Below, in pieces: positions 84 to 61,200 of a stretch of DNA of 64,000 nt. Below the pieces are notes generated by a model. It did not search any database. It was given only the letters and a program-made list of their open reading frames with translations, and had not been told where the DNA came from. The position numbers and the translations under genes were made by a program. Location of the stretch: assembly GCA_947172415.1 (NCBI GenBank), contig OX359196.1, forward strand, positions 870,501 through 934,500, written 5' to 3'. How positions within the stretch are numbered: position 1 is the stretch's first letter; the number at the start of each line of letters is the position of its first letter. The DNA is from Chondrosia reniformis (taxonomy: Eukaryota > Porifera > Demospongiae > Chondrillida > Chondrillidae).

Positions 84-3000
84 TGCCATCTTGAAGACTT
101 TCTGGACTGAAAGGTCCCATCCCAACACTTGTGTTTGCTGCTATCTGTACATATATACTACTTCCCTTTAGAATCACTGAAGTGGCATTGCTCTGTGTGA
201 CCACTCTCATGTACCCCACTTCACTCTCCAGCCTATACCTAATAGTGTAGCTTGTGATGATCCCATTACGACCACGCCCATCTGCCAACCTCAATGGAGG
301 ATGCTGCAAACAAGAGAAATATAAGGGAGGAGCTTAATCTGTGAGGAGCCTACAGTAACTGTTGTGGTAAGTAAACCTGAGGTATACACATACTGTACAG
401 TAAATGCATTTGATCATTGAATACTGTGTCTGCTACTATTATAATAATATCACTTGCTGATAAAGACCCGAAACATTGAAAGGTTAGTTATTGTCCAAAG
501 AAGAAACAAGCTGTGTCTTTAGACACTCGGAAGTTCAGAAGCTGAATTATGTATTTCAAAAGAAAGTTTGATGTTGTGTGAATGAGTCTGTATTTCACTG
601 GAATACTGAATTGCAGTGTTGTGGTACTAACCAATGGATGTTAGGATCCATACACCAACTCACACAAGGTCACACCCTCTGGTGTGGGTAGACACTCACA
701 AGGACACACCCTCTGGTGTGGGTAGACACTCACAAGGTCACACCCTCTGGTGTAGGTATACACTCACAAGGACACACCCTCTGGTGTAGGTAGACACTCA
801 CAAGGTCACACCCTCTGGTGTAGGTAGACACTCACAAGGTCACACCCTCTGGTGTGGGTAGACACTCACAAGGACACACCCTCTGGTGTGGGTAGACACT
901 CACAAGGTCACACCCTCTGGTGTAGGTAGACACTCACAAGGTCACACCCTCTGGTGTGGGTAGACACTCACAAGGTCACACCCTCTGGTGTAGGTAGACA
1001 CTCACAAGGTCACACCCTCTGGTGTGGGTAGACACTCACAAGGTCACACCCTCTGGTGTAGGTAGACACTCACAAGGTCACACCCTCTGGTGTAGGTAGA
1101 CACTCACAAGGACACACCCTCTGGTGTGGGTAGACACTCACAAGGTCACACCCTCTGGTGTAGGTATACACTCACAAGGACACACCCTCTGGTGTAGGGA
1201 GACACTCACAAGGTCACACCCTCTGGTGTGGGTAGACACTCACAAGGTCACACCCTCTGGTGTGGGTAGACACTCACAAGATCACACCCTCTGGTGTAGG
1301 TAGACACTCACAAGATCACACCTTCTGGTGTAGGTAGACACTCACAAGGTCACACCCTCTGGTGTGGGTAGACACTCACAAGGTCACACCCTCTGGTGTG
1401 GGTAGACACTCACAAGATCACACCCTCTGGTGTGGGTAGACACTCACAAGGTCACACCCTCTGGTGTAGGTAGACACTCACAAGGTCACACCCTCTGGTG
1501 TAGGTAGACACTCACAAGGTCACACCCTCTGGTGTGGGTAGACACTCACAAGGTCACACCCTCTGGTGTAGGTAGACACTCACAAGGTCACACCCTCTGG
1601 TGTAGGTAGACACTCACAAGGTCACACCCTCTGGTGTGGGTAGACACTCACAAGGTCACACCCTCTGGTGTGGGTAGACACTCACAAGGACACACCCTCT
1701 GGTGTAGGTAGACACTCACAAGGACACACCCTCTGGTGTGGGTAGACACTCACAAGGTCACACCCTCTGGTGTAGGTAGACACTCACAAGGACACACCCT
1801 CTGGTGTAGGTAGACACTCACAAGGTCACACCCTCTGGTGTGGGTAGACACTCACAAGGTCACACCCTCTGGTGTAGGTAGACACTCACAAGGTCACACC
1901 CTCTGGTGTGGGTAGACACTCACAAGGTCACACCCTCTGGTGTAGGTAGACACTCACAAGGACACACCCTCTGGTGTAGGTAGACACTCACAAGGTCACA
2001 CCCTCTGGTGTAGGTAGACACTCACAAGGTCACACCCTCTGGTGTAGGTAGACACTCACAAGGTCACACCCTCTGGTGTGGGTAGACACTCACAAGGTCA
2101 CACCCTCTGGTGTAGGTATACACTCACAAGGTCACACCCTCTGGTGTAGGTAGACACTCACAAGGTCACACCCTCTGGTGTAGGTAGACACTCACAAGGA
2201 CACACCCTCTGGTGTGGGTAGACACTCACAAGGTCACACCCTCTGGTGTAGGTAGACACTCACAAGGTCACACCCTCTGGTGTAGGTAGACACTCACAAG
2301 GTCACACCCTCTGGTGTGGGTAGACACTCACAAGGACACACCCTCTGGTGTAGGTAGACACTCATAAGGACACACCCTCTGGTGTAGGTAGACACTCACA
2401 AGGACACACCCTCTGGTGTGGGTAGACACTCACAAGGTCACACCCTCTGGTGTAGGTAGACACTCACAAGGTCACACCCTCTGGTGTAGGTAGACACTCA
2501 CAAGGTCACACCCTCTGGTGTGGGTAGACACTCACAAGGACACACCCTCTGGTGTAGGTAGACACTCACAAGGACACACCCTCTGGTGTAGGTAGACACT
2601 CACAAGGACACACCCTCTGGTGTGGGTATACACTCACAAGGACACACCCTCTGGTGTGGGGAGACACTCACAAGGTCACACCCTCTGGTGTAGGTAGACA
2701 CTCACAAGGTCACACCCTCTGGTGTGGGTAGACACTCACAAGGTCACACCCTCTGGTGTAGGTAGACACTCACAAGGTCACACCCTCTGGTGTAGGTAGA
2801 CACTCACAAGGTCACACCCTCTGGTGTAGGTAGACACTCACAAGGACACACCCTCTGGTGTAGGTAGACACTCACAAGGACACACCCTCTGGTGTAGGTA
2901 GACACTCACAAGGACACACCCTCTGGTGTAGGTAGACACTCACAAGGTCACACCCTCTGGTGTGGGTAGACACTCACAAGGACACACCCTCTGGTGTAGG

Positions 3001-6000
3001 TAGACACTCACAAGGACACACCCTCTGGTGTAGGTAGACACTCACAAGGTCACACCCTCTGGTGTAGGTAGACACTCACAAGGTCACACCCTCTGGTGTG
3101 GGTAGACACTCACAAGGACACACCCTCTGGTGTGGGTAGACACTCACAAGGACACACCCTCTGGTGTAGGTAGACACTCACAAGGTCACACCCTCTGGTG
3201 TAGGTAGACACTCACAAGGTCACACCCTCTGGTGTAGGTAGACACTCACAAGATCACACCCTCTGGTGTGGGTAGACACTCACAAGGACACACCCTCTGG
3301 TGTGGGTAGACACTCACAAGGTCACACCCTCTGGTGTGGGTATACACTCACAAGGACACACCCTCTGGTGTGGGTAGACACTCACAAGGACACACCCTCT
3401 GGTGTGGGTAGACACTCACAAGGACACACCCTCTGGTGTGGGTAGACACTCACAAGGTCACACCCTCTGGTGTGGGTATACACTCACAAGGACACACCCT
3501 CTGGTGTGGGTAGACACTCACAAGGACACACCCTCTGGTGTAGGTAGACACTCACAAAGTCACACGCTCTGGTGTAGGTAGACACTCACAAGGACACACC
3601 CTCTGGTGTAGGTAGACACTCACAAGGTCACACCCTCTGGTGTAGGTAGACACTCACAAGGTCACACCCTCTGGTGTAGGTAGACACTCACAAGGACACA
3701 CCCTCTGGTGTAGGTAGACACTCACAAGGACACACCCTCTGGTGTAGGTAGACACTCACAAGGTCACACCCTCTGGTGTAGGTAGACACTCACAAGGACA
3801 CACCCTCTGGTGTAGGTAGACACTCACAAGGTCACACCCTCTGGTGTAGGTAGACACTCACAAGGACACACCCTCTGGTGTAGGTAGACACTCACAAGGA
3901 CACACCCTCTGGTGTAGGTAGACACTCACAAGGACACACCCTCTGGTGTAGGTAGACACTCACAAGGACACACCCTCTGGTGTAGGTAGACACTAACCTG
4001 CCAAAATATCCGTAAATGTGTACTGTTGACCTCTTCGGAGGCAACATTTCCTGGAGCTGCAGTAGGTACAGACTCGCTAGTTCTGATAAAGCCTGACACT
4101 TGAGAAGCAGTGTGCAAATTATTATCCATTGCCTCTATCCTGACTCTGTATTGCGTGTAAGGGAAGAGACCCGATATGGTGGAATTTATTATATTCCTGT
4201 TAACTATTTGAATGCTTTTTTCAAATTCTTCTCCTGAACCTTCTCTTTGTATATATATAGCATAGCTCAAGATGGCTTCAAGATCTCCTTCATACAGCCA
4301 CAAGATGGAGATCGCTGAGTCATTTAGAGTCACTACTTCATTTATGGTTGGTGGGGCAGGAATATCTACAAATACAGAGGCAGACCACTTCAACTATACA
4401 TACATATATATGTACGTACACACATATGTACAAATATTGGGATGTTTAATGTGTGCATGTGTAAGCAAATAAACACAAATTAATTAGGTGGGTCTAATGA
4501 GGATGAGAGGCAACTGTGAAAAGGGGCATATTTGCACATCAAATGGATATTCTGGAATCTTTTAACTATAATAGAGTAAGGATTCCTTCTTAAGAAGACC
4601 CTCATGGTCGAAACGTCTGACAGCAAGAAGTAACAAGAAAATTGCATCTTTAGACGCTCTAAAAGTTGAAAGATGATCCTTTCAAAAGATAACTTTTAAC
4701 TATTTTATAATACTATAATTCCATTACTCGTGTCAAACATTTCAATTCTGTTCTAAAATGTTCATTCTGTACAGATGGTCACATATTGTACGTACATACA
4801 ATAACACAGTGATCTATATACGTACGTACATACACACATACTGTATGTGCATTTGATATTGTTGGCTCACCTGTGACGGTTAGATTTACAGAAGTGGAGG
4901 TGACTCTTGACTCAGCAGCAGGTAAGGTGTCAATAGAAGTGCTCACTTCACATTTGTACACACCACTGTCTGACATTGACCATTGTAAGAATTGAAAACT
5001 GCCTGACGCTGAGGACTGTCTCTGCAACCTGCCACCAGGAATGTTGATATCAAACGGTTCTCCATTCTTGTACCAGCGATACTCAACCCTTGAATTATTT
5101 GCTGAAGTGGTAGCACACTTCAATTCTATTGTGTTTGAAGCAGAATTAGTCTGTCGATAGACATGGGGACCGGATATATCAGTGAACACTGTCGGCAATA
5201 TAACAACTACTTGTGCTGTAGATTGTACAGAAGTGCTGAATGTTGATCCAGTGTCCGGTAGCACTGTCTCAGCGATGCACGTATAGTCTCCTGTGTCTCC
5301 ATTGGACACTTCCTCTATGATTAGATGACCAGGCAGAGGAAACTGAAAACGCTCATTTGGTGTAGCAATTTCTGTGTTGTTGCTCAACCATCTATAGGAA
5401 GGGGGCGGGGCTCCATCAGCCTCACAAGTCAATTCCAACCTCTCTCCAATAAAGGCAATCGTATCAACGAGCTCACCTCCATCCACAAATGATGGCTCAA
5501 GTACTATATGTGGGTACATATGACATGTATACGTTATAGGTATACAAGTTGTGAAGAAAATTACATAGGTATTTACGATACAAATATGTATAACAGTTTG
5601 AATGGATGTATTGTGGCTGAAATTGGCTTTAATACATTATATAAGTACTGTATGTATACAATGAAGAGACAAGAGAATAGCCAAAAACCCTAACCCTTTA
5701 TACATTAACCTGTTGACTGTGTTGACTGGAAGCTACGTATACGTACTCATGTACGTATACTATAAATATACGTATAAACCTACATATAATTACATATGTA
5801 CGTACGTATGTACAATACTTTATAAATGGATACACCAAGTACATATACGCATGTAGTGATATACGTACGTACATTTCCATTTCTGTTGTTGTGAGTTACA
5901 GACTCTTATTTGCAAGCAGTACACATACACCTACTTGTAATGTCTACATATGAAGTGCCCACTGCTGATCCTGCAGGATTACGTGCAATACATTGATAGT

Positions 6001-15909: not shown

Positions 15910-18900
15910 TCAGACTCTGGATGATGTAATGTTCTTGGGAATGCTAATGAGTCTTTCTCTTTCAATCTCATATTCTTCCAACTTTTCCTGAAGTTCAATC
16001 TTTTTTCTAATTGTTGCATTCAAGTACATTTCAAGTTCCTCCTTGTCGTCCCTCATCTTGTGAAACTCCTTTCTTGACACTTGAAGCTTGGCGGAATACT
16101 CCTTTAAACTATCTTGAAATGTCATTATTGTGTATTCCCTATCTCTAAGGGCGGCCAGCTGCTGCCTTATCTCGTATCGTAATCTAAACTGCTCGGACTG
16201 GTTTGCCTTGCTCTCACTCTCCAGTTTACTTTTCAGCTGACTGATCACCACATCCTGAGTAGCAGTGCGTGCTCGTAATATAATTTTCAAATTTTCTATT
16301 TCTTCTACTTTTGCTTTCAGTTTGGCATTGACCTTGGCCAATTCCAGTTCTCCTTGATCTTTTTCTTCTTGATGCAAGGAAGACTTTGAGGCACTTAATG
16401 AAGACTCCAAAATAGCTTTCTTAAATGTCTCCAAAGGTTCCTTCAAAGTGAACGCCAGTTCTCTAGCACTCAGAATGGACAGCAAACAGCGTTTTTCAAC
16501 CTGGACGTCAACTTGACTTCCTATGTTCTCTAATGGCAATTTCCCAGTTGGCTCTTCTGAAAGATAGCTTATGTCAGGACTACTTATACGCTCATTAGAG
16601 AGGTCTTTCATCTTGGACAACTGAGCATTTTTGATGGATTTTAGGAATTTCTTTAACTCTGAAACGACTCCTCTTGTCACCTTCTCAGTGTTAAGTATAA
16701 CAACTTCCAATGCTCGGCTGACATCTTCCTCTTCAGTCAACTTGTGTTGTAGTCCCTGCAGTCGCTCATGTAGTACCACCATCTCCTTCTCCTTGTTAGC
16801 TACCTCTTCCTTCTTCTCTCCAACCTCAGCTGTCCTCAGCTTCAAGGCCTCGTCCAAAGAAGATTTTAATTTGTCAATCTCACTCTCTAATTGTGCGTTT
16901 TTCATCGAAGTATCCTCCACTTTGCTTCGCATCTGTTCAACCATTTGCTCTTTAGTGGCAACTTGCTCCTGCAGATCTCTTACCTGACGAAGGAGACCAC
17001 TTATCTCACTATTCGTGTCTCCTTCCTTTCGAGCCGTGGCTACCTCTCTTACTTCACTCAGCTTCTTCTCCAGAGTCGCCTTCTCTGCCTCCATTTTTTC
17101 AAGCTTGAGTTTGTAAGATTTCAAATCAGCTCTTAGAGTAACCAATTCTTTAGCTTCATCTGAAGATGTTGAACTGTTCAGCTCATCAAAGAGGCTGTGA
17201 GATACGGCATTTTGCTGTTGTGGTCGGGAGGATTGATACTTTGGGGAATCCCCCACAGACATTTCTTTGCTACTCTCTGAAGATGTTGAAAGATCCTTTC
17301 TCAATGAAATACTATCAGTTACTAGTTGGCTCGGAGCCAAGCTCTGATTTGTGGAGAGGTCTCGCAGCCTGTCTTCCAGGATAGCTTTTGCCTCCCTCTC
17401 ATCATTCAATGCTTCTGATAAGTCTTGATATCTCTGCTCCATCTCCTCTTTATCCTCATCAGCTGTTTGTAGCTGATGTTGCATGTCCTCAAACTCACTC
17501 CTCAGACTTTCTATTTTGTCTCTAAGGACTTCATTATATTTCTCCAATTTTCCTTTATCACTCATTCTCTCTCGAAGTTTTTCAAGATCTTGTGTAAGAT
17601 CTTTGTTGGAATCTTTTTGCTTCAATCCTTCATCCTCTAAGCTGCTAATTTTATTCCTCAAGCGTTCTTCAGTTCTCATCAATTTTTCAACTTTGACCAT
17701 CAGCTGGGCATTCAAATCATTCAGATGGTCTATCTCTGAGGCTTGGTGTTTCATCTGTTTCTGTATCTGCCGACGATTATCCTCCAGCGTTGTAGTTTTG
17801 TTGACCAGAGAACTTTCCCGAGATTCAAGTTCCTGAAGAAGATTAGCTTCTCTAGACTCAACCTCTTTCAGTCGTTTCTCATAGTCATCCTGAATGTCTT
17901 TGAATCCCTATGTAGACAAACATACAAAGATATGAAAGAATTAATTTTTGCATAGGTACGTAAGAACCAATATTAATTGGTCCTGCAAATATATACATGC
18001 ATAGGTATTCAGAGTGTAATTATAGGGCTATACTCTCATGGCCAGGCAGGTCTATGGGAGGTACAGTTGTAGTGCTTCCTTATTACTTCTAGTGGCAATC
18101 ACACTAATGTACCCATTAGTCAAAACACACACACACCTCCTGTATAATTGCATATAATATGTATCATAACATACAATGTGTAGTATAATGATAAGATCAA
18201 ATAAGTTCAGGAGCTCATTAAATCTACAATTAATGGCATTCCATTTCCATTGACACAGACCCTCCCCGTGTGTAGCTGCGGTCTAGTGGCATATGGCATT
18301 TCTGTATACATCTATACATGATCATTATACTCTACACAGTACAGTATGTATGTGTAACTGTCAACATGGAGCAAGTTCACCATCTGAATCTTTGGAGTAT
18401 CAAAGGTACAGTTGGTTAGAAGTTTTGGTTTTTGACCTGAGTCTTTATCAATGGATAGTGATGCTTTAGAACCAAAAGATGTAGGTTTGACTCAGGAGAA
18501 TCCATATTTATCTTTTGAAAGGATCATGACAACCAAGAAGTAACAACGCTCTAAAAGTCGAATGATGATCTTTCAAAAGATACGTAAGTTCGACGCAGTT
18601 AGAAGAAATCCTTAAATCCATATTTATTTATTATGTAATACATAGAGCAATCTATATTATAACAGAATGTTCAAGAAAGTTAGTTACTTTACAGTTCACT
18701 ATCTTATCTCACATATGTACATGTACATAGTAACATACAGCCAGCGAGGGTTAGTAGATTAATGTGTTAACTTCTACAAAACACATCATTCTATCCCATA
18801 GCTGTTAGCAGGACTAGAACGAATATAGTTTACACTGCCAGCGGATATACTAATACCATACTGTATACACACATGCATATACTAATGCCATACTGTATAC

Positions 18901-20362: not shown

Positions 20363-33363
<13,001 letters not shown>

Positions 33364-44690: not shown

Positions 44691-45371
44691 ATATTCTTAA
44701 TCCTAACGATTGAGGACGCTTAAGTGTCCTGAACATTATAAATAGCGACAGAAAAGCTTCGTTAACTAATGCTTCCTGAACGCCGCCATTTGCAAAAACG
44801 ATGTATTGACGTATAAATTAAGTGTTACAATAGTTGCGTATGAACTCGTATTATACATATATCGATGTATAAAATAAGTGTTATAATATATAGTTGCGTA
44901 TCAACTCGTTATATATATATATATTCATAATATATATATAATCAATCACACAGCCAACTGTTTCTCTTTGTGCTCATCAGTACACTTTGGTGGTGAATTG
45001 GATGACTTGCTATTGCAAATGAACTAAGGAGATGCTTGCATTATCACTATACACAATATGTTCCACGGAGGCACATTACATTATACAATGTGTTTTAATA
45101 TGAGTTATGTTCATGTATATTATCAATATAAATATGTAATAACTTGTGTTAATGAATGTGGAAATGGTGTCATGTTCTGGTGATTGTGCATTACTATGTG
45201 GTCTTGAGTTAGGAATCTTTTAGGATGAGGGCTTGAATGGAACATATTTCAGGGTGCATGGGATTTGGAATAATTATAATACTATAATGAAGTCGTTTCT
45301 GGAATAATTGCAATCTTGATCATACTGATATGGTGTGTGTGTCCCTAGAGACAAGTACAACACAATCTCTG

Positions 45372-46110
45372 GTCAGCTGGTCTCTGTTGGTCTACTGGTC
45401 TTGGTTGGTCAGCTGGTCTTGGCTGGTCAGCTGGTCTTGGCTGGTCAGCTGGTCTTGGCTGGTCAGCTGGTCTTGGCTGGTCAGCTGGTCTTGGTTGGTC
45501 AACTGGTCTTGGCTGGTCAGTTGTTCTTTGTTGGTCAGCTGGTCTTGGTTGGTCAGCTGGTCTTGGTTGGTCAGCTGGTCTTGGTTGGTCAGCTGGTCTT
45601 GGATGGTCAGCTGGTCTTGGTTGGTCAGCTGGTCTTGGTTGGTCAGCTGGTCTTTGTTGGTCTACTGGTCTTGGTTGGTCAGCTGGTCTTGGTTGGTCAA
45701 CTGGTCTTGGTTGGTCAGCTGGTCTTGGCTGGTCAGCTGGTCTTGGCTGGTCAGTTGTTCTTTGTTGGTCAGCTGGTCTTGGTTGGTCAGCTGGTCTTGG
45801 CTGGTCAGCTGGTCTTGGCTGGTCAGCTGGTCTTGGTTGGTCAACTGGTCTTGGCTGGTCAGTTGTTCTTTGTTGGTCAGCTGGTCTTGGTTGGTCAGCT
45901 GGTCTTGGATGGTCAGCTGGTCTTGGTTGGTCAGCTGGTCTTGGCTGGTCAGCTGGTCTTGGTTGGTCAACTGGTCTTGGTTGGTCAACTGGTCTTGGCT
46001 GGTCAGTTGTTCTTGGCTGGTCAGTTGTTCTTTGTTGGTCAGCTGGTCTTGGCTGGTCAGCTGGTCTTGGCTGGTCAGCTGGTCTTGGTTGGTCAACTGG
46101 TCTTGGCTGA
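45372..46110. repeat. 18-bp intergenic minisatellite, about 41 copies
   Basis: Unit CTGGTCTTGGTTGGTCAG with variants TTGGCT, TTGGAT, TTTGTT and CAGTTGTTC. Variant copies recur in the same order in places (for example AACTGGTCTTGGCTGGTCAG, then TTGTTCTTTG), indicating higher-order duplications of several units. Because 18 is a multiple of 3 several frames stay open, giving false proteins rich in SWSWLV, VGQLVL or DQLTNQ. Confidence 0.96.
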
Positions 46111-46247: not shown

Positions 46248-49200
46248 TTATTTGATTTTCTTTGATTTAATTATCTTTACATTTGCACAGGGTAACTCAC
46301 TCAATGACTGCCTTATCTCAAGTGGTTGTAAGACAACATTATTCTTACTCCATCTAAACATCTGTCTTAATGATGGGGATAGTTGATCATGAATTTGAAA
46401 GCCATAATATGCCAATGTAAACTTAATGCTTGGAAGGTAAGTTGCTACTCCATCCAAAAGTGTCAACGTCAGTGTCCTCATTGCCTAAAAAGGGAACAAT
46501 CCTTTAAATTAGTTCAATGACAACTATTACACACTCTAATCAGCCCTGTTGTCCATCTAGTGTCATATCTACATCACCACTATTTAATAAATATAAGAAT
46601 GGGATCCAGTAAATATCAATAAAGGAAAGATGGCTCTCTTATAGAATGTCAATATAAAAATTGAAGGGATAATCACAACTTTTGCAACATTATGACACAC
46701 AATAGTGACTGAGGACATGACACTGCAATATAATGTTATCATTAATGTACAATACACTAAAGTTGTTAATAGCAAAACAATATTCAAGGTATACAATTAA
46801 CTTAATAAGGCATAATCATTGGCCTATAAGCACATTATTAAGGTCAATATAAATGTTTTACTTATAACCATATTAACCACAAAGAGCCACATCCTACTAA
46901 CCTCATCAAGTGCAGGTGCACATGGTATACTTGTGAGCCTGATATCCATTTTCTTTATTTTACTGAGCCTGATATCCATTTTCTTTATTTTACTATGTTC
47001 AAATGCTTCTTTAGTTGAGTGAGGTTTTTAGAGTGAGGTAAATGACCCTTTTGAATAGAAATAAAAATAATTACATATTCATGTAATCTGAATCCTTGAA
47101 TTACCCAATATGGATGCCATTTTGAATATTACATAACATAGTGTAATATTGCCTATATCACAATACATTAATTACCTAATAGCAAACAGCTAGAGATGAT
47201 GGCAAGCACTAGCTCTACTAATGTATCAAACACGGCGAGAAAAAAAGCAGTTGTTTTAATCTTTGTGTATAGTATACGTATTATAGTACTGTACATTCTG
47301 TATGATTCACTTAACTAAGCTATATTAAAGACATCACTGTTACTGTCTCTCTTCACATGTATAATACCATATGATATGTTAGGTTTTACATAAATAATAA
47401 TACATAGCATTAATATGTGATGTGATGTGAATCTAATAATTACAAAGCTTCATCCAAAAAATAAAATTCAACAATACAGTGTGTATAGCTTTACTTTCGA
47501 CTAGTGTGTGACCAAGTGGTGTCTACAAGTCAAATGTACCTACTATAGATTATCAGTGTATGGTAACATTAGATGTTAGTACCTCACTAATCTCTGCATA
47601 CACCTCAATCTGTTCCAACCTCTCTGATTGTGCAATACAAAGAAACACATCCACCCACTCATGTACTGTGAGTCTCAGTTCCAGTGTACACTTTAAAGAT
47701 GATGAATTGGGAACCACATCAGTGTTACCTTTCCAGAGGTAATAAAATGTTCTATAATCTGTAAAGAAACAGATGAAATGACACAGTAAAGATAGACAAG
47801 TATTCATTTCCACAAATCAGTCAATAAGTTAAACAACAGATATTAATATCATGATAAAACTCTTAGTTAGCCTATAGTTTTATGTACTTCAGGCCACAAT
47901 CTTGCTTCCATTTTTAATTGCTTAGATAAGGTCTGGTCTTCAGTGCATGTGCATACACATAATAATCCTTTGAAAACCCTTTGAAAGTTGGCCTCATTAA
48001 TATGCAACCTAGCTGACAGTCCCTACTTCATTATCATGTGGGTGAAGGGAAGTAGGATCTAGCAACTATTGGCAATTTCACCTCGCACAATCACCACTCA
48101 TAAGTTACTATTATAAAGACAACATACAGATGGACTGAAACAGGGACTGTAGAGATTACACAAGGGACATGGTTCCCTTGACCTCCAAGTGAGATAATTA
48201 TCAGTGTCAACTGGAGTTGAAGCAGTTTCATTGGTAAGTTTGAGATGGTAAATTGACAATAGTTTCTATTATGACTATCATGTTCCTGTGTAAGGAGAAG
48301 TACGGGCTAGGGGCTAAACTGGCAGTTGCCATGGTAATAATAACATGATTATGTTGCATTGATGAACTGGGATAAAGCATCTATATCTATGATTGACATT
48401 TCTTAATTTATATAGCTGTTATTACCATGGTAACTGTAGTGAACCCATCTGAAGAGGGGCTCGTAACAAAATTGGTATATAATGTTGACCAGACCATCCT
48501 CATCAAACACTTTGTGTGTGTACACTTACAAACAGAGCTGTTACTGATGAACACTTCTGTGGTACTTTTATTGCATAATGTACCAAGTAACAGTGACCTC
48601 ATCAAAGGACACTCGAATGACCTGCTGAACACAGCAAATCTTTTCAATGAATGCATTCTTTTCAGTGAGGATGTCAATTTTTCATAAAATGCTGGATCAT
48701 CTTGATTGGTTCCCTTAAATACAAACAACATTAACAATTGAAATGTCTTATATACACACATGTACACTCAACCTCCGATGTGACATGTTAACTACAGTGG
48801 GGTCAGGTTTTACATATTTAAAAGATTCTAATAGCAAATTAAAAACCTTCTTAAAAATTCTCAAGAATACAGTGTGTAGCTTTACTTGTGACTAGTGTGT
48901 GACCAAGTGGTGTCTACAAGTCAAATGTACCTACTATAGACTATCAGTGTATGGTAACATTAGATATTAGTACCTCACTAATCTCTGCAGACACCTCAAT
49001 CTGTTCCAACCTCTCTGATTGCGCAATACAAAGAAACACATCCACCCACTCATGTACTGTGAGTCTCAGTTCCAGTGTACACTTTAAAAATGATGAAATG
49101 GGAACCACATCAATGTTACCTTTCCAGAGTTCATAAAATGTTGTATAATCTGTAAAGAAACAGATGAAATGACACAGTCATGACAAGTATTCATTCACAC

Positions 49201-52200
49201 ATATCAGTCAATAAGTTAAACAAAAGTTACTAATAATTAATACCATGATAAAACTCTTAGTTAGCCTATAGTTTTATGTACTTCAGGCCACAATCTTGCT
49301 TCCATTTTTAATTGCTTAGACATGGTCTGGTCTTCAGTGCATGTGCATACACATAAAAATCCTTTGAAAATCCTTTGAAAGTTGGCCTCATTAATATGCA
49401 ACCTAGCTGACAGTCCCTACTCCATTACCATGTGGATGAAGAGAAGTAGGATCTAGCAACTAGTGTCAATTTCACCTGCAGTCACCACTCATAAGAAGGA
49501 TAACATACAGATGGTTTTAATAAGGCAAAGGTGTCATTCACTTGTTGGTATAGTCTAGATGTAGCAGACAAGATGGATTTCACAGGGCTCCATGGACTGA
49601 AGCAGGGACTGTAGAGATTGTGCAAGGGACATGGTCCCCTTGTGTCACTAGATACGGTACAGGTCAAAAGAAACTTGGCGATTTCCGCAAGGGTTTGTAA
49701 GGGAATCCGCAAATTTTCTGCGTACTGCTGTACAGCCATTTGCGGTTTGCCAAATCATCATCTGCGGGTATCGTCAGCGATGTTTGTAAACAAACGAACA
49801 ATACGTACGTACGTACGTAAGGTGTCGATAGGGAAGCCATGCAATCTACGAAGAAAATTCTTCACAGCTTCCAGTTTCCTTCCATCTGGCAAGAGTATTC
49901 AAAACAGTTTGCTTTGTTGTATAGATTCTTTCAATTGCTAAAAGTTTTAAAATATTGGATGCTGACCCTTTACTTTAGAGATGGAGAGACACAATTCTTT
50001 CTCTTTGATACTTAGTTAATGGCATATAGTTTATTACTGGAAACTCATACGTATTATTCATTATCATTATTCATATTATTTATAGAATATTACAGGATAC
50101 TCATATTATTTAATTCGCCAATCAAAACTCTACGATAAAACACTGAGGTCCGCCGAAAGAATCTGTGAAAATCCTCGGAATTCGTATAGATTCGCAGATT
50201 AACACCTATATTCTGAGGATTTTTACAGATTCCTTCGGCGGACCTCAGTGTTTTATCGTAGAGTTTTGATTGGCGAATTAAATAACATGAGTATCCTGTA
50301 ATATTCTATAAATATTCGTACATGCATTTGGGCGTTATGAATCATTGCGATTAGAAGAAGCAATTAAGAGCGAGATGGCAAGCAAAATTATGGTAGAATG
50401 GATCGAAGGAAGGGCAGCTGGCAAAAGATCGTATGTATTTATAAATTCGTTACGGACGTATATATACCATGTACGCATACGGACAAGGAACATTAGAAGT
50501 CTACGTGTCTAAAAAACGCATATATATACGTACATATGTACGTATTCGCAAATTTCCGCACTTGCAGCTTTCCTCAGTTGCTCTCCCAAAATCCCTCAGA
50601 CAGCTGCGTGGCCAACTGCAGACGGTGGCATTGTCCAACAGCGGAAAAATGCAAAAATCGCCAAGTTTCTTTTTACCTGTACCGTACCTCCAAGTGAGAT
50701 GATTATCAGTGTAAACTGGAGTTGAAGCAGTTTCATTGGTAAGTTTGAGATGGTAAGTTGACAATAGTTTCTATTATGACTATCATGCTCCTGTGTAAGG
50801 AGAAGTACGGGCTAGGGGCTAAACTGGCAGTTGCCATGGTAATAATAATGATAACATGATTATATTGCATTGATGAACTGGGATAAAGCACCTATATCTA
50901 TGATTAACATTTATTAATTTTTATAGCCACTATTACCATGGTAACCGTAGTAAACCCTTCTGAAGAGGGGCTCGTAACAAAATTGGTATATAATGTTGAC
51001 CAGACCATCCTCATCAAACACTTAGTGTGTGTACACTTACAAACAGATCTGTTAGTGATGAACACTTCTGTGGTACTTTTATTGCATAATGTACCAAGTA
51101 ACAGTGACCTCATCAAAGGATACTTCCATGACTCGCCGGACACAGCAAATCTTTTCAATGAATGCATTCTTTTTAGTGAGGATATCAATTTTTCATACAA
51201 TGCTGGATCAACTTGATTGGTTCCCTTAAATACAAACAACATTAACAATTAAAATGTCTACGATTCATTATATACACACACATGTACACTCAACATACAA
51301 TGTGACATGCTAACTACAGTAGGTCAGGTTTTGCATACTTACAAGATTCAACTAATAGCAAATTAAAAGGGCTTCCTTAAAAATTCAACAATACAGTATG
51401 TAGCTTTACTTTTGAGTGGTGTGTGACCAAGTGGTGTCTGCAAGTCAAATGTACCTACTACAGACTATCAGTGTATGGTAACATTAGATATTAGTACCTC
51501 ACTAATCTCTGCAGACACCTTAATCTGTTCCAACCTCTCTGATTGTGCAATACAAAGAAACACATCCATCCACTCATGTACTGTGAGTGTCAGGTTCAGT
51601 GTACACTTTAGAGATGATGAGATGGGAACCACATCAGTGTTACCTTTCCAGAGGTTACGAAATGTTTCAGAATCTGTAAAGAAACAGATGAAATGACACA
51701 GTCATGTCACGACAAGTATTCATTCACACAAATCGGTCAGATAAAACTCTTAGTTAGCCAATAGTGTTATGTGCTTCAAGCCACAATCTTGTTTCCATTT
51801 TTAATTGCTTAGATAAGGTCTGGTCTTCAGTGCATGTGCATACAATAATAATCCTTTGAAAACCCTTTGAAAGTTGGCCTCATTAATATGCAACCTAGCT
51901 GACAGTCCCTACTTCATTATCATGTGGATGAAGAGAAGTAGGATCTAGCAACTATTGGCAATTTCACCTGCAGTCACCACTCATAAGAAGGATAACATAC
52001 AGATGGTTTTGATAAGGCAAAGGTGTCATTTACTTGTTGGTATAGTCTAGATGTAGCAGACAAGACAGATGTTACAGGGCTCCATGGACTGAAGCAGGGA
52101 CTGTAGAGATTGCACAAGGGACATGGTCCCCTTGTGTCACTAGATACCTCCAAGTGAGATGATTATCAGTGTAAACTGGAGTTGAAGCAGTTTTATTGGT

Positions 52201-55200
52201 AAGTTTGAGATGGTAAGTTGACAATAGTTTCTATTATGACTATCATGCTCCTGTGTAAGGAGAAGTACGGGCTAGGCGCTAAACTGGCAGTTGCCATGGT
52301 AATAATAATGATAACATGATTATATTGCATTGATGAACTGGGATAAAGCACCTATATCTATGATTAACATTTATTAATTTTTATAGCAACTATTACCATG
52401 GTTACCGTAATAAACCCCTCTGAAGAGGGGCTCGTAACAAAATTGGTATATAATGTTGACCAGACCATCCTCATCAAACACTTTGTGTGTGTACACTTAC
52501 AAACAGAGCTGTTACTGATGAACACTTCTGTGGTACTTTTATTGCATAATGTACCAAGTAACAGTGACCTCATCAAAGGATACTTCCATGACTCGCCGGA
52601 CACAGCAAATCTTTTCAATGAATGCATTCTTTTCAGTGAGGATGTCAATGTTTCATACAATGCTGGATCAACTTGATTGGTTCCCTTAAATACAAACAAC
52701 ATTAACAATTAAAATGTCTACGATTCATTATATACACACACATGTACACTCAACATACAATGTGACATGCTAACTACAGTAGGGTCAGGTTTTACATATT
52801 TACAAGATTCAACTAATAGCAAATTAAAAGGCCTTCCTTAAAAATTTCAAAAATACAGTATGTAGCTTTACTTTTGAGTGGTGTGTGACCAAGTGGTGTC
52901 TGCAAGTCAAATGTACCTACTACAGACTATCAGTGCATGGGAAAATTAGATATTAGTACCTCAATTATCACTGCATACACCTTAAACTGTTCCAACCTCT
53001 CTGATTGTGCAATACAAAGAAACACATCCACACACTCATGTACTGTGAGTGTCAGGTTCAGTGAACACTTTAGAGATGATGAGATGGGAACCACATCAGT
53101 GTTACCTTCCCAGAGGTTAACAAAACTGGTATAATCTGTAAAGAAACAGATGAAATGGCACAGTCACGACAAGTATTCATTCACACAAATCAGTCAATAA
53201 GTTAAACAGCAGTTATTAATGCCACGAGAAAATTCTTAGTTAGCCTATACTTTTATGTACTTCAGGCTACAATCTTGCTTCCATTTTTAATTGCTTAGAT
53301 ATGGTCTGGTCTTCAGTACATGTGCATACAATAATAATCCTTTGAAACCCTTTGAAAGTTGGCCTCATTAATATGCAGCCTAGCTGACGGTCCCTACTTC
53401 ATTATCATGTTGGTGAAGAGAAGTAGGATCTAGCAACTATTGGCAATTTCACCTCGCACAGTCACCACTCATAAGTTACTATTATAAAGACAACATACAG
53501 ATGGACTAAAACAGGGACTGTAGAGATTGCACAAGGGACATGGTCCCCTTGTCTCACTAGACACCTCCAAGTGAGATAATTATCAGTGTCAACTGGAGTT
53601 AAAGCAGTTTCATTGGTAAGTTTGAGATGTCAAATTGACAATAGTTTCTAGATTACAGAACTACTATGCTCCTGTGTAAGGAGAAGTACGGGCTAGGGGC
53701 TAAACTGGCAGTTGCCATGGTAATAATAACATGATTATGTTGCATTGATGAACTGGGATAAAGCATCTATATCTATGATTGACATTTCTTAATTTATATA
53801 GCCGTTATTACCATGGTAACTGTAGTGAACCCATCTGAAGAGGGGCTCGTAACAAAATTGGTATATAATGTTGACCAGACCATCCTCATCAAACACTTAG
53901 TGCATGTACCTTACCAGCAGATTTGTCACTGATGGACACTTCTGTGGTACTTTTATTGCATAATGTACCAAGTAACAGTGACCTCATCAAAGGAGAATTC
54001 CATGGCAAGCTGAACACAGCAAATCTTTTCAATAAATGCATTCCTTCCAGTGAGGATGTCAATGTTTCATACAATGCTGGATCAACTTGATTGGTTCCCT
54101 TAAATACAAACAACATTAACAATTGAAATGTCTACAATTCATTATATACACACACGTACACTCATCATACAATGTGACATGTTAACTACAGTAGGGTCAG
54201 GTTTTACATATTTACAAGATTCAACTAATAGCAAATTAAAAGGCCTTCCTTAAAAATTTCAACAATACAGTGTGTATCTGTACTTTTGAGTGGTGTGTGA
54301 CCAAGTGGTGTCTGCAAGTCAAATGTACCTACTACAGACTATCAGTGCATGGGAAAATTAGATATTAGTACCTCAATAATCCTTGCCTCCACCTTAATCT
54401 GTTCCAACCTCTCTGATTGTGCAATACAAAGAAACACATCCACACACTCATGTACTGTGAGTATCAGGCCCAGTGTACACTTTAGAGATGATGAGATGGG
54501 AACCACATCAGTGTTACCTTTCCAGAGGTCACGAAATGTTTCAGAATCTGTAAAGAAACAGATGAAATGACACAGTCACGACAAGTATTCATTCACACAA
54601 ATCAGTCAATAAGTTAAACAGCAGTTATTAATGCCACGAGAAAATTCTTAGTTAGCCTATACTTTTATGTACTTTAGGCTACAATCTTGCTTCCATTTTT
54701 AATTGCTTAGATATGGTCTGGTCTTCAGTGCATGTGCATAAAATAAAAATCCTTTGAAAGTTGGCCTCATTAATATGCAGCCTAGCTGACAGTCCCTACT
54801 TCATTATCATGTGGGTGAAGAGAAGTAGGATCTAGTAACTATTGGCAATTTCACCTCGCACAATCACCACTCATAAGTTACTATTATAAAGACAACATAC
54901 AGATGGACTGAAACAGGGACTGTAGAGATTGCACAAGGGACATGGTTCCCTTGACCTCCAAGTGAGATAATTATCAGTGTCAACTGGAGTTGAAGCAGTT
55001 TCATTGGTAATTTTGAGATGTCAAATTGACAATAGTTTCTATGATCACAGAACTACTATGCTCCTGTGTAAGGAGAAGTACGGGCTAGGGGATAAACTGG
55101 TAGTTGCCATGGTAATAATAACATGATTATGTTGCATTGATGAACTGGGATAAAGCATCTATATCTATGATTGACATTTCTTAATTTATATAGCCGTTAT

Positions 55201-58200
55201 TACCATGGTAACTGTAGTGAACCCATCTGAAGAGGGGCTCGTAACAAAATTGGTATATAATGTTGACCAGACCATCCTCATCAAACACTTAGTGTATGTA
55301 CACTTACCAGCAGATCTGTTACTGATGTACACTTCTGTGGTACTTGTATTGCATAATGTACCAAGTAACAGTGACCTCATCAAAGGAAACTCCAATGACC
55401 TGCTGAACACAGCAAATCTTTTCAATGAATGCATTCCTTCCAGTGAGGATGTCAATGTTTCATACAATGCTGGATCAACTTGATTGGTTCCCTTAAATGC
55501 AAACAACATTAACAATTAAAATGTCTATGATTCATTATATACACACATGTACACTCAACATACAATGTGACATGCTAACTACAGTAGGTCAGGTTTTGCA
55601 TACTTACAAGATTCTAATAGCAAATTAAAAGGCCTTCCTTAAAAATTTCAACAATACAGTATGTAGCTTTACTTGTGACTAGTGTGTGACCAAGTGGTGT
55701 CTACAAGTCAAATGTACCTAATATAGACTATCAGTGTATGGTAACACTAGATAGTAGTACCTCACTAATCATTGGATACACCTTAATCTGTTCCAATCTC
55801 TCTGATTGTGCAATACAAAGAAACACATCCACCCACTCATGTACTGTGAGTGTCAGGTTCAGTGTACACTTTAGAGATGATGAGATGGGAACCACATCAG
55901 TACTACCTTCCCAGAGCTTATCAAAAAGTTTAGAATCTGTAAAGAAACAGACGAAATAACACAGTCATGACAGTATTCATTCACACAAATCAGTCAATAA
56001 GTTAAACTACAGATATTAATGCCATGATAAAACTCTTATATAGTTAGCCTATAGTTTTATGTACTTCAGGCCACAATAATCTTGCCTCCATTTTTAATTG
56101 CTTAGATAAGGTCTGGTCTTCAGTGCATGTGCATACACATAATAATCCTTTGAAAACCCTTTGAAAGTTGGCCTCATTAATATGCAACCTAGCTGACAGT
56201 CCCTACTTCATTATCATGTGGGTGAGGAGAAGTAGGATCTAGCAACTGTAGGCCAATTTCACCTGCAGTCACCACTCATAAGAAGGATAACATACAGATG
56301 ATTTTGATAAGGCTAAGATGTTATTCACTTGTTGGTATAGTCTAGATGTAGCAGACAAGACAGATGTCACAGGGCTCCATAGACTAAAGCAGGGACTGTA
56401 GAGATTGCACAAGGGACATGGTCCCTTTGTGTCTTTAGACACCTCCAAGTGAGATAATTATCAGTGTGAACTGGAGTTGAAACAGTTTCATTGGCAAGTT
56501 TGAGATGTTAAATTGACAATAGTTTCTAGATCACAGAACTACTATGCTCCTGTGTAAGGAGAAGTACTAGGGGCTAAACTGGCAGTTGCAATGGTAATAA
56601 TAACATGATTATTTTGCATTGATGAACTGGGATAAAGCATCTACGTATATCTGTGATTAACATATATTAATTAAATATAGTCATCCTCATTAAACACTTT
56701 GTGTATGTACACTTACCAGCAGATCTGTTACTGATGTACACTTCTGTGGTACTTGTATTGCATAATGTACCAAGTAACAGTGACCTCATCAAAGGAAACT
56801 CCAATGACCTGCTGAACACAGCAAATCTTTTCAAAGAATGCATACTCCTCAGTGAGGATGTCAATGTTTCATACAATGCTGGATCAACTTGATTGGTTCC
56901 CTTAAATACAAACAGCATTAACAATTTAAGTGCTTAAGAATGAATGTAAACAGTTGTAAACTCTCCATACACATGTGACATGTCAACTATACATTAGGTC
57001 AGGTTTAGACAATTAAATTTCTGTTTAGTATTTCCTTATACAGAATTTTGTTCCTACTTAAATTGTAAAAGGACACTATATGGAACAACTGATCATACTT
57101 TGAGAAATGATTGCCCATAAACTTAGAAACGATCATCTATACTTGACAAAGTATAAAACATTTGATGTTAATTATTGGAAATGAAAACAAAATTATGTTA
57201 ATTGTTCTGCATGGCTTAGTATTAACAGGCCATTAACCCTATATAACATTAAAGTGGTAATCAAAGTGAATAAGTATTAAGTTATTGTGAACAACTGTCT
57301 CATGTACTGAAGATAATAGCTAAGCTTATTACAAACCTTCTCCTTGGTAGAAATGTCGAGTTTGACTTGCTCCAAAGTCTGGGATTTAGCAATACCATTT
57401 ACAAGATCTATCCACTGTTTTGTAGTGAGTGACATTTGAAGGTAGCACTTCTTACAGCTCACAAGACACTCTTTAGGTATGGCAAGAGTCGACTCATATT
57501 TTTCTGAATATAATTACAAAAAAGACAAATTGACATGTACAGTAACTGTATAGTCACCATCAACATAATTACGTAACATACGTAACATGTATGTATGTAA
57601 TATTTACATTTCACAGTACAATAAACAACCATTTTAGTACACTTTGGTGTCATTAACATGGCCTTACATACGTATACATTTCTGCTATGTATGTATAAGG
57701 CCTAGCATTCAATGTGGTATTGCTTAGAAATCATTTTCTGAGTGAACAAGCGTAATAGAATTTCATAGCTTTGTATACATCCATTGTATTAAATATTGCA
57801 TGGCAGCATATTTGTCAACATACGTATGTAGGAGCTATTGATATTCTCAAATAGATGATGGATGTTGTTTAGAGGACAGGGACAATGTACATAGGTTAAT
57901 CATTAGAATTACGTAGTCTGAATAACTAGCAGAATTAGCACTACATACTGCATGTACACAGACAGTAAGATTTAAAAATAATATTCAAATATAATTCAGT
58001 GGTTGAAATAAAGTCCAGTTCAAGTCAATTTCTATACATTTTATTATAATGGCTGCACATTATTCTACATGGTTGGTAAGTGTGCCTGGCAAAAATACGT
58101 TACAAGTGTTGTAATACGTTAGTTGTGTTTGCACTGACCACTGCATGATAAGGTAATTAATTAAGTGGCTAGTTTCAGTGCACGTGGACACAACCAATGA

Positions 58201-61200
58201 ATACACAAAGTTTCTTGCTAGGCCCAGTTCCTTCCATATTCACAGTGCATAAAACTGTGTGTTATTGATCACTCTATCAACGAACACCTTCGAATTTCGA
58301 ATCTAGTATAACGATATTGTAGCTTGGACATATTCGGTAGCTCAAAGCTTGGACGTCTTTGGTAGTTCGTATATGTACTGTAAATGCGTATGTGGCCTAC
58401 AATGATGCAATATTTTACCTTAAATGAATATCATTAAACGTACCACCCCATACGTGCGTACTGCTACCTGGCACTATGTCTAGGCACTGTGGTGCCAAGA
58501 CAAAAAGTTAATGTACAGTATGTATTACACCCATTGATGCACCCGTATAATATGTTAAGCAGGTGCATCTATCCTTTTTACAAATACATGGTAAAAGAAC
58601 GTAGACACTGGATTCTTTGCCAACAATAGGAGGTTCAGTAAGAGCTATACAACACTCACACAATCCTCTGTAGGCCAATATACGAGTGCATAGTAATATT
58701 GCAGCTTCGTCGTGGCTTTTAGTGTACTTCTCAAGCTCATTATTCTTCTTCGAGATCTTGATTCTTCGTTACAATAATAATTACTAATTGTCACACCGCC
58801 TTTAATTTATTCCAAGCTATAAAAATACTAAAGGATTAACACGTCTTTGATATTAGGACGTAGTGATTTAGGCTATATGTTAGTATGTACCCATAGCACT
58901 AACCACAGCAGAGACAGCAAATTTATTTTATTTGGAAATGATATAAATGACCAAACAAAGTAATGAGCTAGGTTATCACAATCATTAAACCTTATTACCT
59001 CTCTGTAATTCCATATAACAAATACAATTACTGACACACAATAAGACTTACCATTTAGTTCAATTCCACTAATTTCCAGTTCTGTCAAACTCTGTAGTAA
59101 CAGTATTGTAGGTAGAACAAGATGGAAATGAGTCTTGATACTCTTTGGTGACGTAATCTTCAACACACGAATTCCATCATGATGTTGGAGTGTGTACTGT
59201 AAAACTACAGTCTCGTAGGATGAACTGATTTGAAAGGTAAGCTCATTTGAGATGACTTGTGGAAGATAATGTTTTGATAGATCCTCACTGTCAGCTTCAA
59301 AGAATGAAAGCATCAAAAGCACATTCCTGTTATGTGATCGTTCATCACTTGCTTGTTTGGTTATGGCAAATTGTCTTAACCGCTCTTTTATAAAAGCATT
59401 TGGGCGTTGTGTCTTATAAAAAAAGTGATCAGGATAGATGGGGTCAAAACAGTGATCTGATCGGTCAACACTGGCTTGTAGAAGAGAGAGGAAATCAATG
59501 TTCTCAAGTTTACTAAAGTTACAATAGAACTTCCACACTTCAACCATTTCGGGTCTCACAAACTGCTCCCTCCAGATCCTCTCTTGTTCGGGTTTGGTCT
59601 GTTTGGCAATATGGACAGCTGCTAGAGCCTCTTGGATCGTCTTGTGGAGGAACATGTACAGCTGGACAGGAGAGGCGGCATCAAAGTCATCTGCTGACTC
59701 AGCAAACAGGAGCTCATAGATACTACCACGTTTGACATGCTTCACCAAATCTTCTCCAAGGTCTTCTACTGACAGAACTAGCTTCTGTGTCTTGCTAAAG
59801 TCATAGGAGACTTGACACAATGGGGAAAACCCTGGTAGTAAGTGGTCTGGGATTTTGAGAATGTCAGCAATTTTCAAATCTTTAGAAGCATAAAGCAACT
59901 GCCTCTTTATATACAGCCTGTAGATCCCTCCCATGGTACGTGGTAGCCCTTCGTCCTCTAGGTACTCCTGCACTTTACAGATAATCTTCAACACCACTGG
60001 TAGCCGACACATCCCTTGAACTGAAGGAAGGCTCTGCAATCTCTCTTTCAGTTGATCAGACATTTTCTTGTTTGGTACTCTACTTTTACTGAAGTAGTTG
60101 TCAATAAAGAGATTAATCTTCTCTTCTGTAAAACCAAGTATTTCTACATGAAGACAGCGATGTCCCATTCCAGATAGTACTTCGGGACAGGTAAAGGGTC
60201 GTGTGGTGACAATCAAGTCACACTCATCCAAGTAATGGGAGTCACGAGACAGCAGGGCCTTCATGACTTGACTCTTCTTCATCTGTTCACTTATCTCATC
60301 GTAGCCATCGAGAATGAGAAGGACACCTTTGCCTTTTGACTTCTGCAATGTTTGAGCAATAGAAGGATTATCACAGGAATATTTGGCTAGGAAATGATTC
60401 AGTGTTAACTTCTCATTTTCCTTCAAATGATGAGCCACTTCACGAAGGTGACACAAGATGATTAGTTGGTAGTCATTTGGGAGTGTTCCTAATGAGAGGT
60501 CCTTACAGTACTTTCTGGAGAGAGTGGTCTTGCCACAACCTGGAGCTCCACTGATGACTATTCTTTTTCCAGATGTATGTTTACCTAGAGAGAGAACATC
60601 TTCATATCTGATAGATTCTGATTGTTCATAAAATTTGTCAATTCCTTCTAGTGCTGCATGAATAAAGTTGGTAACGTCTTTCTTCCTCTTCAAGTGTTCT
60701 GAAGACTTTACAACGGCTAGCTCTACAAATATCAGTTCTTTAGTAGTCATGTCAGGAGGTACCACTATGAGCTGTGCATTCTTCTTTCTCACCAAATTAC
60801 CAAATGAAATGAGGAGACTCTAAAAGTGATGAATAAGAAAATACTTGTGGTCCAGGAATATCATATCATATTAGATGCTGAATATCATACCACATAATCA
60901 ATATAATACTGATTACATTGGATGTTGTACTACATGTTATATAGTAAACTCACAAAAAGTTAAAACAAATGACTATATTTTTTAATCAGAACAGGGAGGG
61001 AGGTGTAATGGATCTACTGTAATGATGATACAAAAGTGTGACTTGTTGTGCTTCCCTCCCAGGACACTAGTCTGAGCTAAGACCTTATGTACATACAGTA
61101 GGTTATGGGAACACAATTAGGTATAGAATGGAACTAAGTGATCACTGCATGATGATGGGATTTCAGTACTACTATGTATATAAATGAAGTAGGTATAGGA

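Follow-up and report, generated by a model that had tools for sequence, protein, structure and literature searches.

Diversification of fungal NLRs and of algal LRR genes proceeds through selection on shuffled repeats that closely resemble one another. The brown-algal LRR-ROCO genes are reportedly treated in Zambounis 2012, and the sponge NLR repertoire, in Amphimedon, is said to be covered by Yuen 2014. In lampreys, the variable lymphocyte receptors are assembled somatically from LRR cassettes in lymphocyte-like cells; the sponge gene described here resembles them in outcome only, with variable residues on a repeat solenoid that is predicted in the sponge. In its working, this gene, located in a window of 64,000 nt (the whole stretch analyzed) on chromosome 8 of Chondrosia reniformis, is closest to the fungal HNWD receptors and the brown-algal LRR-ROCO genes.

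The HNWD NLRs of Podospora (het-d, het-e, and het-r) and the other fungal NLRs with high internal conservation are described as sharing with this gene very similar C-terminal repeats on an NLR-type receptor, concerted evolution both within and among the members of the family, and positive selection at binding-surface positions (predicted positions in the sponge), and can also be likened to it in repeat-number variation (among paralogues in the sponge) and strong allelic diversity (PMC4986451, PMC12222747). However, the fungal repeats are of the WD40, ANK, or TPR type, none of which was matched in Pfam by a query of the B0 exon and four of the six sponge cassettes, whereas the sponge repeats are of a strand–helix type, lie on exon pairs, and belong to an animal; in the fungal survey, no LRR motifs were reported (PMC4986451). 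The threshold given there, more than 85% identity over at least 100 amino acids (PMC4986451), is exceeded by three of 15 pairs of window cassettes, their mean of 81% being near the 80–100% given for HNWD (PMC12222747).

The LRR-ROCO genes are described as having in-phase repeat-unit exons, exon shuffling, and positive selection on concave LRR sites, all as in the sponge, where the fold is predicted (PMC11378527). In the algae, the exons are 72 bp long, encode single LRRs, and lie N-terminal to ROC-COR, with alternative splicing shown (PMC11378527), whereas the sponge cassettes are 360 bp long with four predicted repeats and lie C-terminal to NACHT in an animal. Among animals, the zebrafish NLR-B30.2 family is likewise expanded and shows variable LRR number, gene conversion, and positive selection; there, the selected module is B30.2, argued to be the recognition module over the LRRs, while in the sponge it is the repeats (PMC4852459). 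The clearest animal NLR case in the literature compared has selection on another domain; a sponge NLR with strand–helix repeat exons would be an animal counterpart of the fungal and algal systems, in a phylum that branched off among the earliest of the animals. Human NLRP3 and other NLRs with LRR exons share exon-modular LRRs permitting alternative splicing, in an account whose relevant passages make no mention of recent module duplication or diversification (PMC6642158). The demosponge Dysidea avara shares an expansion of CARD/DEATH-NACHT-LRR genes, with LRR number differing between NLR clusters, and the main text of that report does not contain the terms "exon," "tandem," or "positive selection" (PMC12909245).

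The gene model, on the minus strand, comprises 16 exons encoding a CARD-like/NACHT protein of 1562 amino acids, with all 1562 codons open and every exon junction in frame (Table 1). It is wider than the range 47583–56900 originally noted, running from a start at 61628 to a stop at 46248; that range is exactly the cassette array of 12 exons, in which A and B alternate from A1 (56900–56717) to B6 (47758–47583). The six A exons (each 184 bp, phase 0-1) and six B exons (each 176 bp, phase 1-0) of the preliminary description are all present at exact coordinates, the 11 introns among them are all GT..AG, and the six 120-codon cassettes contain no stops. The phases are compatible with inclusion of all cassettes or with skipping of A+B pairs; all six are joined in frame within the model, which derives from a single assembly, and are presumably spliced into one mRNA. 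The single B0 exon shows 44% identity to the B query across 34 residues, and an exon resembling the terminal one was found with tblastn at five of seven paralogous loci read. A short open stretch, T0 (46949–46902), was rejected as an exon because the reading frame runs on from B6 into the terminal exon when it is omitted.

Table 1. Features of the NLR gene, in positions of the window.
Feature	Position	Strand	Basis
Exon 1: start codon and CARD-like death-fold region, 119 codons	61272..61628	-	Gene model; Pfam CARD
Exon 2: NACHT NTPase exon, phase 0-1	59052..60819	-	Pfam NACHT; gene model
Exon 3 (B0): single divergent B-type repeat exon, phase 1-0	57337..57503	-	Gene model
Cassette 1 exon A	56717..56900	-	Exon mapping
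Cassette 1 exon B	55761..55936	-	Exon mapping
Cassette 2 exon A	55308..55491	-	Exon mapping
Cassette 2 exon B	54372..54547	-	Exon mapping
Cassette 3 exon A	53915..54098	-	Exon mapping
Cassette 3 exon B	52960..53135	-	Exon mapping
Cassette 4 exon A	52501..52684	-	Exon mapping
Cassette 4 exon B	51498..51673	-	Exon mapping
Cassette 5 exon A	51041..51224	-	Exon mapping
Cassette 5 exon B	48974..49149	-	Exon mapping
Cassette 6 exon A	48530..48713	-	Exon mapping
Cassette 6 exon B	47583..47758	-	Exon mapping
Terminal exon: C-terminal repeat/cap, 78 codons and stop	46248..46484	-	Gene model
Inserted element in A5–B5 intron, 40-nt terminal inverted repeats	49650..50689	.	Intron-length comparison

Exon 2 matches Pfam NACHT, the domain sought for an animal NLR, with an E-value of 6.8e-22 (78.5 bits versus a cut-off of 26.7), and the N-terminus matches CARD at E 0.0027, its 18.1 bits lying under the curated cut-off of 23.9. 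For the cassettes, a Pfam search with B0 and four of the six matched no LRR family, and a single-sequence search with B0 and two cassettes matched no PDB entry; a PDB profile search returned four chance-level hits only, and profile–profile comparison with NLRs bearing Pfam LRR labels gave no match, the best alignment being a chance one in their NACHT region. When the exon A model was compared by Foldseek, none of the 50 listed matches, out of 302, was an LRR protein and no E-value fell below 0.001, a result that is uninformative at that model confidence and length. The structure models of the two exons are of low confidence (mean pLDDT 67.7 and 65.5) and place strands at residues 25–29, 53–57, 85–91, and 112–118, with helices between them and a strand spacing in exon A of 28 residues. 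From the periodicity and these low-confidence models, we infer a leucine-rich-repeat fold for the cassettes.

The cassettes had been called almost invariant, which slightly overstates the case: 78 of the 120 positions do not vary and 42 do, but over the whole cassettes pairwise amino-acid identities are 73–88% (nucleotide identities 88–94%) in 15 pairs; the variant residues quoted for them are present in the exons. Variation had further been assigned mainly to the predicted ligand face. Of the 40 strand-face and loop positions 23 are variable, and of the 80 others 19, a clustering beyond chance (Fisher p 3e-4), while the strict strand face alone, in a fixed register, does not differ significantly (10/20 versus 32/100, p 0.10). 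Mapping onto the exon models, as had been suggested, yielded the same enrichment as far as low-confidence models allow: outward strand residues are variable at 9 of 12 positions and inward ones at 2 of 12 (p 0.006), and the model strands with the six residues after each at 25 of 48 versus 17 of 72 (p 0.001). The outward side of the predicted strand and the following loop are enriched, but in exon A variation peaks in that loop (9/10 positions) more than in the strand itself (3/10). High variability is also seen at exon B positions 64, 65, 67, and 68, which lie in a helix modeled with low confidence. When the strand register was slid by 0–29 as a control, the number of variable face and loop positions was highest at shift 0 (23), followed by shift 2 (22), with shift 2 slightly above shift 0 (36 versus 35) when counted by residue number. 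For the strand face alone, the maximum (13) was reached at shifts 4 and 6, which puts the center of variation at the end of the strand and in the loop after it.

The duplicated introns provide a built-in neutral control, so that selection can be measured copy by copy. Over the 15 cassette pairs, pN was 0.103, pS was 0.050, and A–B intron divergence was 0.071 (0.060–0.083). At face and loop positions, pN rose to 0.174 (95% bootstrap 0.121–0.232)—that is, 2.5-fold the intron rate—with a pS of only 0.018. The codon alignment proposed earlier thus revealed a nonsynonymous excess concentrated at these positions. Comparison of models M1a and M2a gave 2dlnL values of 69–90 across four topologies, with a positive-class omega of 17.6–21. 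In neutral recombining simulations (n=24), the maximum 2dlnL was 21 on a tree and 30 on a star, and the nominal 5% cut-off was passed by four of 24 (tree) and six of 24 (star), so that nominal p-values mislead. The NACHT exon, by contrast, is constrained (dN/dS 0.25–0.63 in 15 pairs from six of eight genes; CARD comparisons with G3 were excluded as misaligned). Redundant cassettes whose variable positions are free to drift would account for the pN outside the face and loop (0.066), which approximates the intron rate; such relaxed constraint is nevertheless very improbable in view of the face and loop excess with almost no synonymous change, the high omega, the six open cassettes of six, and the variation of other arrays at the same sites. 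Duplication of cassettes within the gene is supported, as originally proposed, and so is diversifying selection, which centers on one side of each predicted strand and its following loop. As in the fungal receptors, positive selection falls on surface positions, their placement on the surface resting here on low-confidence models. Change at such positions faster than in neutral DNA suggests that a simple animal may diversify recognition surfaces within single genes.

Paralogues carry from 0 to about 6 cassettes, and the nearest relative switches from segment to segment across the array, the neighboring gene G2 being the closest to the W4 and W5 A–B introns in their 5′ portion. Per-site variability in the window cassettes correlates with that in own paralogues (rho 0.51) and in a second assembly (rho 0.52; 119 sites; 13 A and 18 B rows, excluding P0056, P0088, and P0094, which lie on other contigs). 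Some of these A rows carry intron residues at positions 59–61 and only 8 of the 18 B rows cover positions 63–72, so that the second-assembly entropies there are rough. In an array on chromosome 11 (C11), one cassette pair shows 9 differences across about 1,570 positions, yet in one patch every one of the 11 columns differs; this patch coincides with the main variable run of the window gene. Cassettes 2 and 3 differ at 11 of the 18 patch columns, these forming one block of adjacent columns that includes a 6-nt in-frame gap, and at none of the remaining 174 columns of exon A or the 176 of exon B. The patches of the four C11 cassettes are all different, and their lengths differ by 3 and 6 nt, always by a multiple of three. 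The pair compared in the C8b array showed several scattered replacements and a 9-nt gap instead of one patch.

These observations bear on the source of the variants. The patches may come from divergent alleles by short-tract gene conversion instead of arising as new point mutations, with selection then retaining them—a possibility held tentatively and at somewhat less than even chances, compatible with positive selection on the cassettes, and favored by the single block separating otherwise identical C11 exons and by haplotypes that appear diverged enough to act as donors. A search of the assembled genome for two of the patch variants, allowing up to 3 mismatches, however, returned the source copy as the only match. 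It is considered unlikely that a CDR-like patch within the repeats undergoes focused block-wise diversification, being exchanged as a unit by short-tract conversion from alleles or altered by targeted mutation; if patches were so exchanged, sponges would own a dedicated means of generating receptor diversity. Tandem arrays are prone to assembly artefacts, and collapsed or mis-joined copies could in principle mimic such patterns. This is extremely improbable here, given the in-frame C11 length differences and an assembly built on PacBio data, whose primary haplotype has a reported QV of 69.8 (PMC12181767). Four A exons of the cluster are also listed on a 979,001-base contig, which adds little because it is probably from the same assembly.

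In the second, apparently conspecific assembly, the chromosome-8 cluster appears strongly diverged, the best match of the window NACHT ORF reaching 89% (P0002), whereas for the relatives on chromosomes 7 and 6 identity is complete or almost complete. Cassette ORF tallies differ between the two assemblies among the matches listed; cassette number perhaps differs between their chromosomes, and would then presumably be polymorphic in populations. Such divergence would suit a polymorphic self/non-self locus like het-d/het-e of Podospora, with faces reading proteins of other individuals rather than of microbes, and fungal allorecognition NLRs are described as carrying near-identical diversified repeats (PMC4986451, PMC12222747). 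Allorecognition is nonetheless considered unlikely, as pathogen-driven NLRs are expected to show the same pattern and the conspecificity of the second assembly is itself inferred. The gene offers concrete sites and loci for weighing microbe recognition against allorecognition in sponges.

Taken as a single whole, the following explanation is considered likely: that the gene is an intact germline NLR of C. reniformis with a tandem sensor array of two-exon cassettes, each forming four strand–helix repeats per 120 residues, subject to cassette turnover and bearing a selected surface of a non-self receptor. Cassettes would be added, removed, and homogenized through gene conversion and unequal exchange, both among themselves and with neighboring paralogues, as the mosaic intron and exon relationships suggest. 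Positive selection would keep altering residues on one strand side and the loop after each strand, with the scaffold and NACHT motor meanwhile kept under constraint. The product would be an intracellular receptor whose predicted binding surface keeps up with variable non-self ligands, for example proteins of microbes, and which signals via its CARD-like domain; this is the most likely function, with ligand binding and an immune role presumed.

The A5–B5 intron measures 1891 nt, compared with 760–827 nt in the other five A–B introns, and the element inserted in it is probably younger than the cassette duplication.

The minus-strand NLR-type gene was modeled as 1484 stop-free residues running through the last of its six B exons (B6), followed by 78 residues in the terminal exon, with all junctions in frame. 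The preliminary description had proposed that the reading frame survives the addition, loss, or skipping of cassettes; by exon length, this is so for an A–B pair (184 bp + 176 bp = 360 bp) and impossible for A or B alone, a phase compatibility that is a property of the sequence and not evidence of splicing. Five of the A–B introns measure 760–827 nt, and that between A5 and B5 carries an inserted element whose terminal inverted repeats are 40 nt long (90%), with a further inverted repeat of 105 nt inside it. Because its flanks suggest a TA target duplication, we take this element to be non-autonomous and Tc1/mariner-like. Directly downstream of the stop of the gene, an 18-bp minisatellite of ~41 copies (45370–46106) was observed, with several frames open.

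Table. Features of the window gene and its cassette-bearing relatives (cassette, one exon A plus one exon B; B0, single divergent B-type exon; cassettes of relatives located by tblastn)
Feature	Location	Strand	Remarks
Window	G000 (assembly) chromosome 8, 870501-934500
Exon 1, CARD-like	61628-61272	minus
Exon 2, NACHT	60819-59052	minus
B0	57503-57337	minus
Six A/B cassettes (W1-W6)	between B0 and terminal exon	minus
Inserted element	49650-50689		A5-B5 intron, ~1.04 kb
Terminal exon	46484-46248	minus
G2, neighboring paralogue	chromosome 8, 940-947 kb		one cassette
G3, neighboring paralogue	chromosome 8, 954-963 kb		two cassettes
Chromosome-8 array	2.14-2.18 Mb		about five or six cassettes, if one gene
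Chromosome-12 relative			two cassettes
Chromosome-11 relative			four cassettes
Chromosome-6 relative			two cassettes

The six window cassettes share 73–88% amino-acid identity and vary at 42 of their 120 positions. Over 15 pairs, mean pN was 0.103, with a pS of 0.050 and an A–B intron divergence of 0.071 (bootstrap 0.060–0.083); between copies 2 and 3, dN was 0.118, with a dS of 0.024 and an intron divergence of 0.025. With the LxxLxLxx register set by conserved hydrophobic residues, the predicted strand face and following loop were variable at 23 of 40 positions versus 19 of 80 elsewhere (p = 3 × 10−4), and the face alone at 10 of 20 versus 32 of 100 elsewhere (p = 0.10). At face plus loop, pN was 0.174 (bootstrap 0.121–0.232) and pS 0.018; pN outside this region was 0.066—that is, approximately the intron rate—indicating that the nonsynonymous excess is local.

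The diversifying selection suspected in the A and B exons was supported by codon models, fitted with home-made code rather than PAML: overall omega was 2.6–3.2, and M2a was favored over M1a with 2ΔlnL of 69–90 on four topologies. Since recombination can mimic selection, 24 neutral recombining data sets (five random trees each; mean of 39 variable amino-acid sites) were simulated and fitted with the same code, using fewer optimizer steps. Simulated 2ΔlnL was below 12 on both topologies in 23 of the 24, with maxima of 21 (tree) and 30 (star), and the real data on these topologies, at 78 and 90, exceeded all 24 simulations. The nominal 5% cut-off was exceeded by four (tree) and six (star) neutral data sets, so nominal p-values are untrustworthy. 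Furthermore, dN/dS in the NACHT exon was 0.25–0.63 (15 pairs, six of eight genes); the excess therefore belongs to the cassettes.

No match was found by Pfam LRR searches (B0 and four cassettes), PDB sequence searches (B0 and two cassettes), or profile searches with the window repeats, and no LRR protein appeared among the 50 fold matches listed, of 302, for the exon A model. Folded alone, exon A (22-row alignment; mean pLDDT 67.7) was predicted to form helix 7–21, strand 25–29, helix 36–47, and strand 53–57, and exon B (27 rows; mean pLDDT 65.5, with the first 18 residues below 50) helix 2–9, strand 23–29, helix 31–43, and strand 50–56. The model strands approximately coincide with the positions from the hydrophobic register, and the repeats may be LRR-like. 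By these strands, outward residues were variable at 9 of 12 positions versus 2 of 12 for inward ones (p = 0.006; low-confidence models), and in sequences from an apparent second assembly mean entropy was 1.10 bits outward versus 0.38 inward (p = 5 × 10−4). Thus, the proposed location of the variation on the ligand face appears to hold in outline, but the main site in exon A would be a rim loop, the loop after the strand being variable at 9 of 10 positions and the strand at 3 of 10.

Between the second and third cassettes of the chromosome-11 array, 20 of 1636 alignment columns differ, namely 11 adjacent exon A columns (five substitutions and a 6-nt gap) and nine others. By region, differences fall at 11 of 18 columns in this patch, 0 of 174 in the remaining exon A, 0 of 176 in exon B, and 4 of 225 in the A–B intron; with 15 randomly placed events, six fell inside an 11-nt window in none of 200,000 trials. 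The patch, which corresponds in position to the variable run after LKRFAV in the window gene, has a different sequence in each of the four cassettes, gaps being 3 or 6 nt long; cassettes 1 and 4 differ outside it too. The patch can be accounted for by strong selection on mutations together with homogenization of the flanks; blocks acquired from other alleles would explain it at least as well. For one patch variant from this array and one from the window, no near copies were found elsewhere in this haplotype.

At least 94 NACHT exon matches occur in the genome (121 candidates, 74 scored), and the loci of seven close relatives were examined. Genome-wide, exon A has 23 matches and exon B 22, none on chromosome 7, where tblastn found no cassette in the 10 kb examined around the relative. 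The nearest relative of the window cassettes shifts among B–A intron, A, A–B intron, and B, crossing gene boundaries: in the 5′ part of the A–B intron, W4 (1.5%) and W5 (0.8%) are nearest to G2, and in the 3′ part W4 is still nearest G2 (2.1%) and W5 nearest W4 (4.5%). Such segment-wise switching is the trace expected of unequal exchange and conversion.

Several relatives have further peculiarities. In the distant chromosome-8 array (G000:C8:2140001-2177000), five or six cassettes extend over >20 kb, and two adjacent B exons differ by an in-frame gap of 9 nt. An extra B0-like exon lies between NACHT and B0 in five relatives (chromosome 8, 944545 and 2174838; chromosome 12, 4236318; chromosome 11, 6326942; chromosome 6, 2636686), and was not found by the same search in the window gene or G3. 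In the chromosome-6 relative (P0013), a 12-residue minisatellite (QLPARDDQSDNT) is repeated ~20 times, in frame, within the NACHT exon frame.

In the protein collection, an 8,594,859-base contig of the apparent second assembly, which seems to be a whole chromosome, has at least five NACHT ORFs of the window subfamily among 52 matches, and at least 13 of the 18 exon A and 18 of the 25 exon B ORFs listed; a 979,001-base contig with the window's own ORFs has at least 4 and 5, respectively. The window gene, G2, and G3 together contain nine A and nine B exons, so the ORF listings hold about half, and these tallies are lower bounds. The larger contig may include relatives of the distant 2.15-Mb array; at ≥75% (A) and ≥80% (B) identity to the queries, the larger and smaller contigs have 7 versus 3 A and 16 versus 5 B ORFs. 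The chromosome-8 cluster of the second assembly probably carries more cassettes. Its best NACHT ORF of the five (P0002) is 89% identical to that of the window, and the counterparts of the chromosome-11, -6, and -7 relatives show 88% identity (P0012), 100% identity (P0013), and one mismatch in 1312, at the first residue (P0009). The second assembly would appear to represent the same species, in another individual or haplotype, with a strongly diverged chromosome-8 cluster. Per-site variability of the window array correlates with that of the second-assembly exons (rho 0.52, 119 sites) and of its own paralogues (rho 0.51).

The product is proposed to be a cytosolic NLR with a CARD-like signaling end, an NTPase, and a long arm of interchangeable 120-residue blocks, whose number would be altered by exchange and whose ligand-facing rim and strands by selection. 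Microbial ligands seem likelier than other targets, the main rival being a function in allorecognition; the specimen's metagenome yielded 53 binned bacterial genomes (PMC12181767). Among open-licence papers, no report was found of this locus or of an animal NLR whose closely similar repeat cassettes are under selection at their surface. Fungal NLRs whose internal repeats are highly conserved (PMC4986451, PMC12222747) and brown-algal LRR-ROCO exon arrays (PMC11378527) undergo the same kind of process in other domains.

Elsewhere in the window, a long coiled-coil frame (15910–17904, minus) weakly matches Bicaudal-D, scoring under the Pfam cut-off. An open frame at 24612–25403 shows RtcB homology in two stretches split by an in-frame 24-bp minisatellite; the repeat may fill an intron or belong to the protein itself. 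Minus-strand receptor exons of immunoglobulin and fn3 type lie next to a 34-bp minisatellite of 98 copies (663–3994).
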